Shown here: positions 1,965-8,465 of the stretch, piece by piece
Layout of the letters: each line of letters begins with the position of its first letter
Position numbering within the stretch: the first letter of the stretch is position 1
DNA from: Candidatus Cloacimonadota bacterium
GTDB taxonomy: Bacteria > Cloacimonadota > Cloacimonadia > Cloacimonadales > TCS61
Assembly: GCA_018654125.1 (NCBI GenBank)
Contig: JABIME010000327.1
Location: 1 to 8,465, forward strand
Length of the DNA: 8,465 nt
Reading direction: 5' to 3'
The notes under the pieces: model-generated
The model's database searches: none
What the model saw: only the letters and a program-made list of their open reading frames with translations
Told to the model about the DNA's origin: nothing
Translations under genes and position numbers: made by a program

Positions 1965-3503
1965 GTGTATCTGATTAGAAATATTTTAGTTCCGGTTGCA
2001 AGAGATGTTAATTTGAATAAAGCAATCTCTAATAAATTAAAGATCTCTGCAAACAAAATAAATAATATTAAAATTTTACGTCGTTCAATTGATGCTCGCA
2101 AGAAAAACTTCCTGAAGTATAATTTAACGCTAATTGCCGATATTGATCTTAATTTAAAATTAGATGCTGAACTACAAGAATATTCCGAGCCACAATCTTA
2201 TATCAAAGATATAATAAAACTTTCAAACTTAAATCCATTTATTATTGGAGCTGGGCCTGCAGGACTCTTTGCAGCACTTTCACTCGTTGAAAATGGCTTT
2301 AAACCATATATTTTTGATAGAGGAGAGACAATAGATCTTCGAGCAAAAAAAGTAGAAGATTTCTGGAATAATGGAATTTTTGATGAAAACAGTAATGTAC
2401 AATTTGGGGAGGGTGGAGCTGGAACATTTTCTGATGGAAAACTCACTTCCAGAACCAGAGATTTTTATACTAATAAAGTAGTTGATTACCTTATCAAGTT
2501 TGGTGCAGATGCATCAATAAGATACGATTCTCTTCCTCACCTTGGAACCGACGGACTTAGAGATATCATTAAGAATTTGCGAGAATTTCTTATTGAGAAA
2601 GGCTGTAAGTTTTTTTGGAACAGCAAGCTGGAAAATATTGATATTAAGGATAATGCAGTTAGTTCCGTTACTATAAATAAAGAAAAGTATTTTCCTGAAA
2701 TTATTGTCTTAGCTATTGGGAATTCAGCAAGAGACACCTTCTTAATGCTTAAAGATAAAATCAAAATGGAAAGTAAATCATTCGCAGTTGGATTTAGAAT
2801 TGAGCATTCCCAGAAATTTATTAATAATTCATTCTATGGTGAAAAAACAGATCTCTCGCTCACTGGTCCGGCAACTTATCGTCTCACAACTAAATATAAA
2901 GAAAAAGGGATTTATAGCTTTTGTATGTGCCCTGGAGGATTTATTGTAGCAGGATCTTCCCAGAAAGACAGTCTTGTTCTTAATGGGATGAGCTTTAAAG
3001 ATAGAAACAATAGATTCGCAAATAGTGCAATCGTTGCAACCGTTAATAATAGTGATTTTGGTGAAGACCTTTTAGCCGGAATGATGTTTCAACAACAAAT
3101 AGAGAAAAAGTGTTTTAGTAGCGATAGACCATATCTTGCTCCATCTCAAAATGCTTTTAATTTCATGAATAATTCTACTTCGAACACATTTACGAAAACC
3201 AGCTTTCAACCGGGAATTTTCCACCACGATCTTAATACTATTTTCCCATCTAAAATTACAGAAGCAATTAAATTTGGTTTAACCAAATTTGATAAAAGAG
3301 CTCCCGGATTTATAGCTAATGGTCTATTACTTGCACCTGAAACTAGAACATCCTCACCTGTTCGAATACTTAGGGACCGTGATACGTTCCATGCTAATGG
3401 GATATTAAATCTCTATCCAGTTGGTGAGGGCTCTGGTTATGCTGGTGGAATTATGAGCAGTGCAGCTGATGGCTTTAAGTGTGGTAATCATTTTTCGTTA
3501 TAA
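1965..3503 (+). CDS. FAD-dependent dehydrogenase (COG2509 type)
   Basis: This is a 512-residue cytoplasmic flavoprotein of the NAD(FAD)-utilising dehydrogenase family; its physiological substrate is unknown. Residues 1-65 form the family's small N-terminal alpha/beta domain with the signature RRSIDARKK. An FAD-binding Rossmann motif follows, GAGPAG at 95-100. The family hallmark VQFGEGGAGTFSDGKL is at 145-160. FMCPGG-like and PGFIANG segments and the closing YPVGEGSGYAGGIMSSAADG flavin-contact region are all present. The start is GTG, with GGAGG 4 nt upstream (1956-1960), and this start keeps the N-terminal domain intact. Length is normal for the family. The tail runs 121 bp short of the selenoprotein gene, with no clear terminator between them. 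No direct link to the redox genes downstream is evident. Confidence 0.9.
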   Translation: MYLIRNILVPVARDVNLNKAISNKLKISANKINNIKILRRSIDARKKNFLKYNLTLIADIDLNLKLDAELQEYSEPQSYIKDIIKLSNLNPFIIGAGPAGLFAALSLVENGFKPYIFDRGETIDLRAKKVEDFWNNGIFDENSNVQFGEGGAGTFSDGKLTSRTRDFYTNKVVDYLIKFGADASIRYDSLPHLGTDGLRDIIKNLREFLIEKGCKFFWNSKLENIDIKDNAVSSVTINKEKYFPEIIVLAIGNSARDTFLMLKDKIKMESKSFAVGFRIEHSQKFINNSFYGEKTDLSLTGPATYRLTTKYKEKGIYSFCMCPGGFIVAGSSQKDSLVLNGMSFKDRNNRFANSAIVATVNNSDFGEDLLAGMMFQQQIEKKCFSSDRPYLAPSQNAFNFMNNSTSNTFTKTSFQPGIFHHDLNTIFPSKITEAIKFGLTKFDKRAPGFIANGLLLAPETRTSSPVRILRDRDTFHANGILNLYPVGEGSGYAGGIMSSAADGFKCGNHFSL

Positions 3504-3577: not shown

Positions 3578-3624
3578 ATGTATCTGGAGAGTTAAATAAA
3601 GATGTAAACTAAAAGGAGAGAAAG

Positions 3625-5289
3625 ATGAAAAAACACATTATTGTTTTGGTTATTCTATTGCTTACAATGTCATTGTTTGCAGTATGGCAAGTTGGAGAAC
3701 CAATTACTGATGACTATTCATGGACAGATAGTAATGGTGAAGAGCACTCAATACATGAGTTAACTGCTGCTGGAAAGGCTGTAGTAATATTCTGGGGAGA
3801 AAGTTGGTGACCGGGCTGCACAGCGGCGGCGCCGTTTATGGAAGCATGGTGGAACACACAAAATCCCGATGATGTTTATTACATCGCAACTTATGATTGG
3901 ACTGAAATTGGCGTAACAATGCCATATGCGACAGAAGTTTATGGTTATTATAATGATTTCGGGAATGGTTATGTTCCATTTTTCGGAGTTATTGGAGCAT
4001 ATAATATTTTTATGTATGGTGATAATGATTATCTTCCAGCTCAAAATATGGTACCAGATGCAATTGAATCTTTCAATCATATGGGTGTAGTTGCCCCAAT
4101 TGCAGATGTAGAAAATAATTTCTGGGGATTTAATAATATCGATGTTACCGATATGTTTGCATCACCAAGTGGAAATCCTGTCACTGTTTCAATTTCAGAC
4201 AATAGCAACCCAAATGTTGCCAGTGCTGTTTTAGAAGATGACGTTATTACAATTATTATCGGTTCTGAACTCGGATCAACAGAAATCACTGTTACAGGTG
4301 ATGATGGATCTGACGAAACTGTTGATGATGTATTTGTTGTTACAGCGTTAAATCCTAACCTTCTGAGCTATGATTATGATTTAGAAGATAGTCCTGCTCA
4401 GGGATTATATCCTAATAATCCTAACCAATATGCAAATTCTTATACAGATCTAGGCTGGACATCTATCGATGTTACAGAAACAGATGAAATTTCTAATGTT
4501 CATTTTTCTGTAATGTGGGAAAGTGTTGATTATGCTTCTGAAGGAACTTTCCGAGCTACATCACCAACTGGAACTGATGTTGAACTTTATGCTTCTGCAG
4601 GTACAACACCTACACAATTAGAGCTCGATGCCACTGGCTTCAATGGTGAAGCAATGAATGGTGAGTGGATCATTTATATGCTAGATAGCTTTGGTGATGG
4701 TGGACATCAAGTAACCGATGGTGTTGTAACTTTCATGGCAAGTTCTACTGATATCGGAATGGTTGCAGGACTTGTTACAGATGCTACAGGTGCTCCAATT
4801 TCAGATGCTGTGATTACTGTTAGCAATATTGCAACAATGGTAGATGAAGATGGTCAATTTTCTTTTGATATATTAAGTGGAGATTATACATTCACATGTG
4901 AAGCAGACGGTTATGAAGTAGCAACACTTGATGAAACTGTTACAACAGGTGAACTTACTTATTTAGGTTTCGAATTAACAGCTATAACAGGAACTAATGA
5001 TCTACCTATCTTTGCAACAGAGCTTCAAAACAATTATCCAAATCCATTTAACCCAACAACAAATATCGCTTACTCAGTTAAAGAAGCTGGTAATGTTACT
5101 TTAGAAGTTTACAATATTAAGGGACAACTTGTAAGAACTCTTGTAAATGGCACAAAAGAGACAGGACAGTTTACTGCAACGTGGAATGGAACTGATAATA
5201 ATAGCAAATCTGTTTCAAGTGGAGTTTACTTCTACAAAATGAAGTCTGGTAATTACTCTTCTACAAAAAAAATGATCCTTATGAAATAG
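3625..5289 (+). CDS. Secreted thioredoxin-like selenoprotein (UPGC) with P-like, carboxypeptidase-regulatory-like and C-terminal sorting domains
   Basis: One 554-residue frame runs through an in-frame TGA (3808-3810) read as selenocysteine U62, ending at TAG. Domains in order are: signal peptide (~1-19, MKK plus hydrophobic core); thioredoxin-like fold (~40-155) with VVIFWGESW-U62-P-G-C65-TAAAPFMEAW and a likely cis-Pro at P118 (YVPFF); Ig-like beta domain (~163-241); P/Homo B-like domain (~275-373, SPTGTDVEL, NGEWIIYMLDSFGDGG); carboxypeptidase-regulatory-like beta sandwich (~379-451); and type IX/FlgD-like sorting domain (~466-554). U62 stands where related proteins have the attacking Cys of CxxC, so an extracytoplasmic thiol-selenol oxidoreductase is predicted. 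The only other Cys is C425. The ATG has GGAG 6 nt upstream. A TGA stop would leave a 61-residue peptide of signal sequence and first strands. The domains after the TGA are intact, which argues against decay. Sec-synthesis genes are not in the window. Confidence 0.85.
3808..3850 (+). promoter_or_regulatory. Bacterial SECIS element with recoded UGA (Sec)
   Basis: Hand folding gives an upper stem AGCGGC (3822-3827) with GCCGUU (3831-3836) closing a GGC loop (3828-3830). The loop starts 17 nt after the UGA and has G in its first two positions, both features of bacterial SECIS elements bound by SelB. A lower stem is possible: A3810-U3850, CC 3811-3812 with GG 3848-3849, G3813-U3847, and UGC 3817-3819 with GCA 3844-3846, with bulges between. 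Bases 3811-3835 are 21/25 G or C in an AT-rich gene, and they force three consecutive GCG Ala codons, which suggests selection on RNA structure. A rival hairpin GCUGC-ACA-GCGGC exists but lacks a G in the loop and sits too close to the UGA. Confidence 0.82.
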
Positions 5290-5316
5290 TTACACAATCT
5301 ATAATAGTGTAATACA

Positions 5317-5347
5317 AAACGCCCTGATTAATCAGGGCGTTTTTTTT
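5317..5347 (+). terminator. Strong intrinsic terminator after the selenoprotein gene
   Basis: AAAACGCCCTGATT and AATCAGGGCGTTTT form a perfect inverted repeat with a GC-rich core. It is followed by an uninterrupted T run (5340-5347). It begins 28 nt after the stop codon and separates the selenoprotein unit from the trmB-dsbD unit. Being palindromic with flanking A and T runs, it could in principle act in both directions. Confidence 0.95.
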
Positions 5348-5423: not shown

Positions 5424-6233
5424 ATGACAGAACATCTAGTTGAGTTGATGGAAGTTGGACTTACTGAAAATGAAGCAAAGGTTTATAGTTGTTTACTCCG
5501 GAAACACACTTTTACAGCTACTGAGATATCTCAATGTTGCAACGTGAACAGATCTAGAATATATTCTGTTTTAGAGAGCTTGATAGGTAAAGGATTATGC
5601 ATCGAAAAATTAGGTAAGATCAGAAAATTCCAAGCCGCTGCACCAGAGATCGCTTTTGAGAAACTTATAAGCGAACAAAACAATAAGCTAAAAACACTAA
5701 ATTCACTTCCAGATCTTCTATCACCTATTTATCAATCTAATAGCGATAATTCTTCTCCGCTTGAATTTATAGAAGTTTATGGAACTCCTGCGAGTATTAT
5801 AAAAAAACACCATACTTTAGAGCTAGAATCTAAAGAAGTTGTGCTTTCACTTTGCAAATCTCCATACGCAATGTCTAAAGATCTCGATATTCATGAAGAG
5901 CAGTCAGAAAGTATGAAGTCTGGTGTTATATTCAAATCAATATTTGAGGTAGAGACAGATAACATTGTACACTTTGCAAAAAGAATGAAGAATTTTGAGG
6001 ATCAAGGTGAGCAAATTAAAGTAGCTTATCACCTTCCAATTAAATTACATGTTTTCGATGACCATACAGTAATGTTCTCAATGATTAATCAGGTAAATCC
6101 AGAGCAAAACCTTACATATATGGTAATTAAGCATTCAGATCTCGCAGAAACCCTCATCACAACATTCTATAAATATTGGAATGACGCGATCACTGTTGAT
6201 AAGTTTTTAGACAAAGAAAACATTAAACTTTAG
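5424..6233 (+). CDS. TrmB-family winged-helix transcriptional regulator
   Basis: This 269-residue cytoplasmic protein has an N-terminal TrmB-type winged HTH (about 5-75). GLTENEAKVYSCLL, TATEISQCCNV and the recognition helix NRSRIYSVLESLIGKGL are followed by the wing. A short helical linker (~73-95) and a C-terminal sensor-like domain (~112-269) follow. The family is best known from archaea, where members regulate sugar uptake and metabolism; bacterial members have varied or unknown ligands. Adjacent cysteines C38-C39 sit just before the recognition helix, with C23, C59 and C144 elsewhere. In this redox neighbourhood thiol or metal sensing is possible but unproven. The ATG has AAGGAG 5 nt upstream. 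The gene lies 57 bp before dsbD on the same strand, so it probably heads that unit. The effector is unknown. Confidence 0.85.
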   Translation: MTEHLVELMEVGLTENEAKVYSCLLRKHTFTATEISQCCNVNRSRIYSVLESLIGKGLCIEKLGKIRKFQAAAPEIAFEKLISEQNNKLKTLNSLPDLLSPIYQSNSDNSSPLEFIEVYGTPASIIKKHHTLELESKEVVLSLCKSPYAMSKDLDIHEEQSESMKSGVIFKSIFEVETDNIVHFAKRMKNFEDQGEQIKVAYHLPIKLHVFDDHTVMFSMINQVNPEQNLTYMVIKHSDLAETLITTFYKYWNDAITVDKFLDKENIKL

Positions 6234-6290: not shown

Positions 6291-7895
6291 ATGAAAAAAA
6301 TTTCGTGGATCACTTTATTAATAGTGATATTATTTACTTCTCTTACGGCTCAATTACCAGACCCGCAAGAAGTGATTTCAGCAAAGATTGAAGGAAATCA
6401 AATTAAAGTAACATATAATATACCGGATGGATTTCATCAAACCTTACAGGAAGATATGTTTTTTGTTGAAGTTGATGAAGTTGAAGGAATAACATTTGAA
6501 TCAACTGTCTATCCTAAAGGTGAAAAAATGGAAGATGGCACTATTGAATTTCATGGTGTTGTTTCTCTTACTAAAAATTTTGTAGCACAAGATAATATTA
6601 GCAAAGAAACTTCTGTAACCATTTATGCAGGTTACCAATTCTGTGATGAAGGTGGAACATGTTTTATGCCTGAAGAGATCGAATTAAACATATCTTTAGT
6701 ATCAGGTGATAATATTGCAAAATCAGAAGAAACCGAAGATTCAAACTCAGAAATTACTGGTTCAGACAGCATCGAAGAACTTTTAGTAATGCTTGAGGAT
6801 TTTGAAATTTCCGGTAAAGAAGCCGGATACCAGAATAGTAAAGATTTTTCTGCTTTCTTAGCAAACTCAAAAGAAGCCGGTTCATTTAACACAAATAAAT
6901 TTGCGGATATGAGTATCTGGGTGATTATCATATTGATACTAATTGGTGGTATTGCACTTAATCTAACTCCTTGTGTTCTTCCAATGATGCCAATAACAAT
7001 AGCAGTTTTAGGTGCTGGAACACAATCGGAATCTAAAGGCAAAGGCTTTCTTATTGGTGGTATTTATGGTTTAGGAATGGCATTAGCTTATGGAGTATTA
7101 GGCGTGGTGGTGGTTCTAACCGGTTCTCAATTTGGAACCATAAACTCATCTCCTTGGTTTAACCTAATTATCGCGGCTGTTTTCATTATTCTATCTTTAG
7201 CGATGTTCGATATTATTCCAATTGATTTCTCTAAATTTCAAAGTGGTAAAGTTGGCGGTAAGAGTAAAAGTAAATTCATAACTGTATTCATTCTTGGAGT
7301 TATAGCTGCTGTTTTAGCTGGTGCATGTGTTGCCCCTGTTCTTATCTCTGTCATCATCTATTCAACTTCGTTATATACAGCTGGGAATCCTGCCGGATTA
7401 TTACTTCCATTCCTGTTAGGTGTTGGAATGGCAATCCCATGGCCATTTGCTGGAGCCGGACTCTCATTCCTTCCTAAACCAGGTAATTGGATGAAGTGGG
7501 TAAAAATAATTTTTGGTGTTATTATTCTAGTAATTGCAATTTTCTATATCTACACAGGTGTGAAGATTTTCAAAAGTAATATGCCTGTTGATGTAGCTGA
7601 TTATACACACGAGACTTCTGAACTTCCTTGGAAACACTCGATAACCGAAGGTTTAATTGAAGCAAAGAAAACAGGTAAACCTGTATTTATTGATTTCTGG
7701 GCAACATGGTGTAAAAACTGCCTGGCAATGGATGCTTCAACATTTAAAGATGAGCAAGTCATTAAAGAATTTGATGATTATATTTTGGTTAAATATAAAG
7801 CAGAAAACCTAAAAGCCTCTCCAACAAAAGAGATATTAAAACATTTTGAGGTTCTCGGTTTACCAACTTATATCACACTAGTCCCAAAAAAGTAG
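6291..7895 (+). CDS. dsbD: DsbD-like thiol:disulfide interchange protein (C-terminus short)
   Basis: This inner-membrane carrier is predicted to pass electrons from cytoplasmic thioredoxin to periplasmic thiol proteins. All three DsbD modules are visible in 534 residues. They are a signal peptide (~1-20), an N-terminal Ig-like domain with C118-X5-C124 (YQFCDEGGTCFMP), a membrane domain of about eight helices (~207-427) with the redox cysteines C228 (LTPCVLP) and C346 (GACVAP), and a C-terminal thioredoxin domain with W-C474-K-N-C477. The protein stops 9 residues after the cis-Pro P525 (GLPTYITLVPKK), about 30 residues before E. coli DsbD would end, so the last strand and helix of the thioredoxin fold seem absent. 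Only 13 nt separate the stop from the next start, leaving no room for a shifted continuation. GGAGG lies 4 nt before the ATG. It is likely co-transcribed with the flanking genes. Confidence 0.92.
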   Translation: MKKISWITLLIVILFTSLTAQLPDPQEVISAKIEGNQIKVTYNIPDGFHQTLQEDMFFVEVDEVEGITFESTVYPKGEKMEDGTIEFHGVVSLTKNFVAQDNISKETSVTIYAGYQFCDEGGTCFMPEEIELNISLVSGDNIAKSEETEDSNSEITGSDSIEELLVMLEDFEISGKEAGYQNSKDFSAFLANSKEAGSFNTNKFADMSIWVIIILILIGGIALNLTPCVLPMMPITIAVLGAGTQSESKGKGFLIGGIYGLGMALAYGVLGVVVVLTGSQFGTINSSPWFNLIIAAVFIILSLAMFDIIPIDFSKFQSGKVGGKSKSKFITVFILGVIAAVLAGACVAPVLISVIIYSTSLYTAGNPAGLLLPFLLGVGMAIPWPFAGAGLSFLPKPGNWMKWVKIIFGVIILVIAIFYIYTGVKIFKSNMPVDVADYTHETSELPWKHSITEGLIEAKKTGKPVFIDFWATWCKNCLAMDASTFKDEQVIKEFDDYILVKYKAENLKASPTKEILKHFEVLGLPTYITLVPKK

Positions 7896-7908: not shown

Positions 7909-8465
7909 ATGAAGAAATTTCTGATCATAATTAGCCTAATTCTAATACTTTTTGCTTGCGATAGGTTTGAACATAACCTTGAGCCAACAAGTAATAATGA
8001 AAATTACATTATAGATTTTTTTACAACATTTACTAATTCAGTTGAAACTATACTTCCAGCAGAAGATGTTTCTAGTATTATGGAATATTTTCATGATGAT
8101 TATAGTAATAATGGGTTAATGAAAGCTGATGTAGAAAATTTTTATGAATCTTTCTATGCTGTAAACTCACTTCTGAATTTTGAGACTACATTAATAGATA
8201 CAAATGGCCTTGAAATTGAATGGCAATTATTGGTAACAGATCCTGATTCAGAAACAACATTTATGGATACATTAATTACTGATGTATTAATTGAAACTGA
8301 AGATTCTTTCCAATTTTATGGTAATCAAGCTGATATGAGAAATGTCATTGTTGAGCTTTTTACGGGTCAATGGTGCTCCAATTGTCCAAGTGCAGAAGAT
8401 GCTTTACACAACCTTAGAGCTCTTTACGGTAGCAGATTCTCATATGTGGAATATCATGTTGGTGA
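7909..8465 (+). CDS. Lipoprotein with thioredoxin-like WCSNC domain (Omp28-like), 3' end cut by window
   Basis: The frame is open to the window edge, giving 185 full codons. A lipoprotein signal, MKKFLIIISLILILFA-C17, predicts lipid anchoring in the cell envelope. Residues ~30-140 form an acidic region of unknown fold. A thioredoxin-like domain then starts at about 143: VIVELFTGQW-C156-S-N-C159-PSAEDALHNL. The ELFTGxWCxNCP wording resembles Omp28-related lipoproteins of Bacteroidota and related groups, from family knowledge. AAGG lies 9 nt before the ATG, 13 nt after dsbD, so the two genes are almost certainly co-transcribed and this protein may receive electrons from DsbD. The end of the fold, including the cis-Pro, lies outside the window. 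The active site uses TGC/TGT, so no selenocysteine is seen here. Confidence 0.85.
   Translation, partial: MKKFLIIISLILILFACDRFEHNLEPTSNNENYIIDFFTTFTNSVETILPAEDVSSIMEYFHDDYSNNGLMKADVENFYESFYAVNSLLNFETTLIDTNGLEIEWQLLVTDPDSETTFMDTLITDVLIETEDSFQFYGNQADMRNVIVELFTGQWCSNCPSAEDALHNLRALYGSRFSYVEYHVG

Follow-up and report, generated by a model that had tools for sequence, protein, structure and literature searches.

The stretch of DNA analysed here (the window) comprises 8,465 nucleotides (nt) of contig JABIME010000327.1 from Candidatus Cloacimonadota bacterium (assembly GCA_018654125.1), and it is almost certain that positions 3625-5289 of its forward strand are a single intact gene, split in databases by an in-frame TGA, whose product is an exported selenoprotein of the thioredoxin-like type. 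On comparative grounds, the insertion of selenocysteine (Sec), the 21st amino acid, at this TGA is close to certain, and the prediction that Sec is decoded in an exported protein can be held with very high confidence. The reading frame, the active-site motif, the conserved TGA, a covarying hairpin and a C-terminal sorting domain of the type IX secretion system (T9SS) are seen in the sequences themselves, and the Sec genes and the T9SS protein SprA are found in related genomes. Sec insertion in the window's own organism, export of the product and redox activity are what these features predict.

Structure of the gene

The features that define the gene are as follows.

3625..5289, + strand: complete selenoprotein gene, 554 amino acids (aa) with predicted Sec62 (translation; the single TGA recurs in full-length relatives)
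3808..3810, + strand: in-frame TGA, read as selenocysteine (Sec62) on the basis of the frame and a conserved column in relatives
3614..3618, + strand: Shine-Dalgarno-like AGGAG, 5' of the upstream ATG (sequence)

The frame consists of 61 codons (3625-3807), the TGA, and a further 492 codons that end at a TAG (5287-5289), in DNA with a GC content of 34%. A first-pass annotation of this DNA had described two open stretches in the same frame joined by a single TGA, with coordinates and a translation that proved exact, and translation across 3808-3810 bears out the GESW-U-PGC motif that it had placed there, with the TGA at the active site. It had further supposed that standard gene callers split the gene, and this is what databases hold: among 45 database proteins found, 44 start 3' of the TGA, in most cases from residue 72 or 99, including the NCBI entry of Candidatus Tenebribacter mawsonii (P0004). 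The TGA and these database starts together indicate that gene callers cut this family systematically and, since the resulting fragments lack both signal peptide and active site, the export and the chemistry of the family have been hidden. The sole full-length protein of the 45, P0002, is known from its protein sequence only and has cysteine (Cys) at the site (GESWCADC); it is the one Cys homologue obtained by the search that the first-pass annotation had recommended.

Domains and predicted export of the product

Four regions can be recognized in the 554-residue product.

3625..3681, + strand: signal-peptide-like N terminus, residues 1-19 (sequence; cleavage site judged by eye)
3682..4074, + strand: TlpA/ResA-like thioredoxin domain with UxxC at residues 62-65 and invariant Pro118 (profile and structural matches, alignment)
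4762..4977, + strand: carboxypeptidase regulatory-like domain, PF13620 (domain scan)
5035..5277, + strand: T9SS type A C-terminal sorting domain, TIGR04183/PF18962, overlapping FlgD_ig (domain scan)

The assignment of the thioredoxin fold is based on a CxxC-type motif that leads into a long helix (residues 63-76, right after U62), on the proline position and on structural matches. Cys65 and Pro118 are invariant in all 18 thioredoxin domains aligned, and Pro118 is presumably the cis-Pro position of the TlpA/ResA-like family. The structural matches are ResA and StoA (PDB 2h1b and 3erw) together with 2ls5, a Bacteroides protein listed as a putative disulfide isomerase; all are far shorter chains and are not known to be selenoproteins. 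None of the curated TlpA/ResA-type models is passed by the window protein (ResA, 22.4 bits against a cut-off of 170), which also falls below the cut-offs for Redoxin (23.6 against 26.6) and AhpC-TSA (22.7 against 26); the latter is passed by three of eight read-through relatives. No NCBIfam model is over cut-off for the window domain, the best E value in the 18 domains scanned being 8.9e-05.

At its other end the protein resembles T9SS cargo, in that a signal peptide (recognized by eye) is combined with a sorting domain over cut-off (TIGR04183, 45.3 bits against 23), and SprA is over cut-off in all 12 related genomes examined, with matches in none of 14 control genomes. The eight read-through relatives scanned vary in length from 395 to 747 aa, always with the thioredoxin domain at the N terminus. 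Seven of them have a sorting-domain match, over cut-off in six, and their middle regions differ: a beta-helix with PKD was found in three, a carboxypeptidase-like domain in one and a P-domain in one. In L152 the sorting domain is just under cut-off and FlgD_ig over it, and L169 has a dockerin-like end just below cut-off. As the domain is of the T9SS type, passage across the outer membrane or to the cell surface is probable, and use of the T9SS itself is considered likely.

A possible but clearly less probable explanation is that Sec is inserted and the protein acts only as a periplasmic reductase, its tail being a structural immunoglobulin-like domain that mediates no transfer across the outer membrane. 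FlgD_ig does match the same stretch as the sorting domain, and the genes for DsbD and an Omp28-like protein, together with TlpA-type genes noted by eye near the relative L003, would suit a periplasmic thiol pathway; a protein at the surface would, moreover, be hard for the periplasmic DsbD to reach. These points are set against the TIGR04183 score, the presence of SprA in every related genome examined and the recurrence of the sorting domain behind differing middle regions, all of which argue for T9SS cargo. The first-pass annotation had taken the product for an envelope redox enzyme. Its export is well supported by the signal-like N terminus, the sorting domain and SprA, and a redox role, well supported as a prediction, is deduced from fold, motif and neighbouring genes. 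This annotation contained neither the T9SS tail nor the extent of the family, nor the position of other members next to selA.

Conservation of the TGA across Cloacimonadota

The nearest relatives of the gene are found in Cloacimonadota, namely in Candidatus Tenebribacter mawsonii (L001, 88% identical) and at the loci L003 (79%) and L002 (76%). A search with the whole protein matched all of 124 Cloacimonadota genomes, mostly via the common C-terminal region, and the thioredoxin domain was therefore used alone, as a profile of 18 domains that all derive from TGA-bearing genes with the site read as C. At E<=4e-40, taken as a strong match, at least 38 domains were found in 32 of the 124 genomes, the counts being lower bounds for some genomes in which scoring was limited to the best 30 candidates. 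The next match lies at E 1e-10, and matches from this value upwards, including one in G107 with three TGA in a frame of 90 aa, were excluded from the family.

Exactly one in-frame TGA occurs in 37 of the 38 strong matches, so that it cannot be there by chance. The exception, L173 (site 1562, G002:C160), has WSPSS in place of WUPGC and hence lacks both Sec and Cys, and the hairpin is absent from its DNA; this paralogue may descend from a redox protein whose function it has lost, or may be decaying. With L173 omitted, and also L167 (G115), which does not differ from L164 in the 90 nt compared, the window and 36 relatives form an alignment of 37 distinct copies in which the TGA occupies the same column. 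Most of the relatives' frames stay open for at least 270 codons past the TGA within the DNA available; that of L153 runs off the available DNA 158 codons on, and that of L158 is closed by a TAA after 172. Decay of the downstream sequence in relatives, which the first-pass annotation had named as evidence that would speak against its own proposal, was not seen, and coding sequence is kept 3' of the TGA.

These data bear on the possibility that translation does end at the TGA and that the stretch is a pseudogene or two genes, the second of them the 483-aa open reading frame that starts at ATG 3838. This is how gene callers treat the family, as the 44 shortened database proteins attest, and it is nevertheless highly improbable. 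The same TGA is retained by 37 of 38 strong relatives with both flanks conserved, and synonymous changes outnumber the others on either side when the codons are compared with those of L139 (raw counts of 17:10 upstream and 48:18 in codons 12-180 downstream). In addition, no ribosome-binding motif is seen 5' of position 3838, the GC-rich bases shown there containing nothing like AGGAG, a protein shortened in this way would begin within the thioredoxin fold, and the codon bias of the hairpin described below goes beyond what protein selection alone would produce.

Beyond the phylum, 11 genomes were searched, two of which (G075 and G076) belong to Cloacimonadota and had already been covered. The other nine gave one distant TGA-bearing match (G126), one weak match without TGA (G133) and, in seven, none. 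The match in G126, a member of Calditrichaeota (L174, E 3e-15), has its TGA in WFGYSUPSC, followed by a 6-base-pair (bp) hairpin with a GGC triloop farther from the TGA, and some 12 kb from it there is a relative that has no TGA. Eight further genomes of the phylum of G126 yielded one weak match without TGA and, in seven, none. Judging from L174, the trait may reach beyond Cloacimonadota.

A hairpin downstream of the TGA

Insertion of Sec in bacteria is directed by a hairpin, the bacterial selenocysteine insertion sequence (bSECIS), and a candidate was located as follows.

3821..3837, + strand: bacterial SECIS-like hairpin with loop GGC at 3828-3830, 17 nt after the TGA (comparative; the stem has 6 bp in the window and more in some relatives)

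The 37 sequences align without gaps 3' of the TGA, and a stem of positions 14-20 with 24-30, enclosing a loop at 21-23, was tested for covariation against 500 shuffles, which ignore relatedness. Paired cells make up 81.1% of the stem against 73.9% in shuffles, cells with double changes number 21 against 11.1, further pair types 11 against 7.1 (reached by one shuffle in 500), and the covariation score is 0.181 against 0.083; L150, for example, has an A-U pair at a position that is C-G in most sequences. Codon usage points the same way. The two alanine codons of the stem-loop are GCG in 35/37 and 37/37 sequences and the proline codon is CCG in 34/37; elsewhere in the same genes (60 codons upstream and codons 9-200 downstream) GCG accounts for 38/607 and CCG for 56/371. 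Protein selection alone therefore does not explain the bias. The triloop appears in 35 of 37 short folds.

The published bSECIS model specifies a loop 3-9 nt long whose first two positions include a G, an upper stem of 4-16 bp, a spacing of 16-37 nt and a minimum free energy of -7.5 kcal/mol or lower (as given in PMC13188914). With a GGC loop, 6 bp and 17 nt the window hairpin lies within the limits of shape, and a 45-nt fold of the window that retains it reaches -15.2 kcal/mol.

Some results count against the hairpin as a bSECIS. In isolation it reaches only -6.9 kcal/mol, just short of the limit, the folding energy of the window is not unusual compared with shuffles, and three of four window stretches folded favour another structure, the longest retaining the triloop. 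Only 20 of 37 folds of 45 nt contain the triloop, which is also missing from the short folds of L139 (the nearest relative) and L151, the latter having a 5-nt loop in a shifted register. Finally, four pairs are changed on both sides, a number reached by 57 of 500 shuffles. A scan of the region with Rfam gave only two matches, to long non-coding RNA models, far below gathering score. The hairpin that the first-pass annotation saw beside the TGA thus stands as a covarying feature of the family that satisfies the bSECIS shape constraints, and its folding energy in the window is ordinary.

An alternative stem of positions 5-12 with 19-27, favoured by short folds, was considered and rejected: its percentage paired and its pairs and cells with double change are reached by 120, 453 and 231 of 500 shuffles, respectively, with a slight excess in covariation score (14/500) and pair types (25/500).

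Selenocysteine machinery in related genomes

Six related genomes were searched for the genes of Sec synthesis and insertion, which the first-pass annotation had asked for. Both selA and the gene for tRNA-Sec (selC) were found in all six, selA over cut-off and tRNA-Sec over gathering score and called by ARAGORN as tRNA-SeC with anticodon TCA; selB is over cut-off in five, and selD was found in five, each time with one in-frame TGA. The selD genes of L132-L136 are thus themselves selenoprotein genes, and in four of the five a GUCC-GGC-GGAC hairpin has its loop 17 nt after the UGA, with loop and spacing as in the window; in L132 the loop is one of 5 nt. For tRNA-Sec, a Cloacimonetes type has already been published (described in PMC5330540). 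In 14 control genomes, selA is over cut-off in one, selB in two, selD in two and tRNA-Sec in five, and only matches over cut-off were counted because selB, selD and tRNA-Sec match below cut-off in all 14. The window's own organism would be expected to have the Sec genes of its relatives.

Across the phylum, selA has a match in 61 of 124 genomes (58 over cut-off), distributed as 31 of the 32 family-bearing genomes (30 over cut-off) against 30 of the 92 others (28 over cut-off). In seven genomes (G108, G109, G110, G112, G114, G115 and G124), selA is preceded on its own strand by a family member some 640 residues long; the gap, estimated from frame lengths, is 150-260 nt. The loci of this selA-adjoining branch are L167, L171, L160, L161, L164, L152 and L166. 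The arrangement suggests joint control of this branch with Sec synthesis.

The correspondence is not perfect, and the following observations detract from it. The selB of G002 is a weaker, partial match below cut-off; G004 has no selD match; G069 (1.0 Mb) bears the family with no selA match, and G102 bears it with a selA fragment only. These gaps possibly reflect incomplete assemblies. Conversely, 30 selA-bearing genomes are without a strong family match, and tRNA-Sec alone is less telling, as it is over cut-off in 5/14 controls.

Likewise highly improbable is a reading of TGA as a sense codon, whether for Trp, Gly or Cys, by way of an altered code or an unusual tRNA: no window gene ends in TGA, which would agree with such a code, but the six other window genes, of which two are truncated at the window ends, contain no in-frame stop, TGA included, the seven genes use 32 TGG codons, TGA ends seven of 60 mechanical stop-to-stop frames of at least 250 codons (frames unvetted as genes) at the loci of six related genomes, and tRNA-Sec with its TCA anticodon, selA and selB in relatives, the Cys homologue P0002 and the covarying hairpin all favour Sec.

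Taken with the coding sequence kept downstream, the last-named features support the interpretation of the gene as a selenoprotein gene, for which the following mechanism is proposed. The gene would be one translation unit in which the UGA at codon 62 is decoded as Sec, with SelB, carrying Sec-tRNA(Sec) with anticodon UCA, reading the short, GC-rich hairpin with its GGC loop 17 nt downstream. The N-terminal signal would direct export, and the sorting domain would probably take the product on across the outer membrane or to the cell surface, where Sec62 and Cys65 (UPGC) of the thioredoxin domain would carry out thiol-disulfide or peroxide chemistry, with DsbD as a presumed source of electrons.

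Neighbouring genes

The genes and elements around the selenoprotein gene are listed below.

1965..3503, + strand: FAD-dependent protein (domain scan; also upstream in L001 and L003)
5316..5343, + strand: terminator-like hairpin (weak evidence, as one was found against 0.8 expected in shuffles)
5424..6233, + strand: TrmB-type regulator (domain scan; also downstream in L001, L002 and L003)
6291..7895, + strand: DsbD-like transmembrane thiol reductant carrier (domain scan; also downstream in L001 and L003)
7909..8463, + strand: Omp28-like lipoprotein, truncated at the window end, with Cys motif WCSNC (domain scan)

Relation to known selenoproteins and significance

Sec in TlpA-like domains is already known (PMC13188914). 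Table 1 of that paper includes UxxC selenoproteins of the TlpA/redoxin type, namely a Prx-like thiol:disulfide oxidoreductase (PF00578), a thiol-disulfide isomerase-like protein (cd02966) and Redoxin (PF08534), as well as a UGC-containing TlpA (cd02966). The present family shares with them the thioredoxin-like fold and Sec as the first residue of UxxC (UGC in the UGC-containing TlpA). It differs in that the domain heads longer proteins, with T9SS-type tails in seven of the eight scanned, an architecture that no row of the table names. The same table lists, in its GOS_C row, an Omp28-related selenoprotein of the UxxC type (NF045500). The window's Omp28-like gene is weakly similar to it, with Cys instead of Sec and a score of 17.3 bits against a cut-off of 200 for a protein cut by the window end; the window selenoprotein itself showed no relation to this model in the model scan. 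Searches confined to a library of open-licence papers found no T9SS-tailed selenoprotein family, no selenoprotein T9SS cargo and no report of this gene.

The family would thus represent a new selenoprotein architecture, spread over many genomes of Cloacimonadota, a little-studied phylum known almost only from metagenomes, and would tie the use of Sec to type IX export. The GGC triloop and its 17-nt spacing, seen also in selD, offer a possible handle for finding further selenoproteins in the phylum. The picture that is somewhat favoured overall is that of a nearly Sec-only Cloacimonadota family in which a Sec thioredoxin head is joined to varied middle regions and exported by the T9SS, with one branch directly upstream of selA, and in which selenium-based redox chemistry at the cell surface may help to retain the Sec trait.
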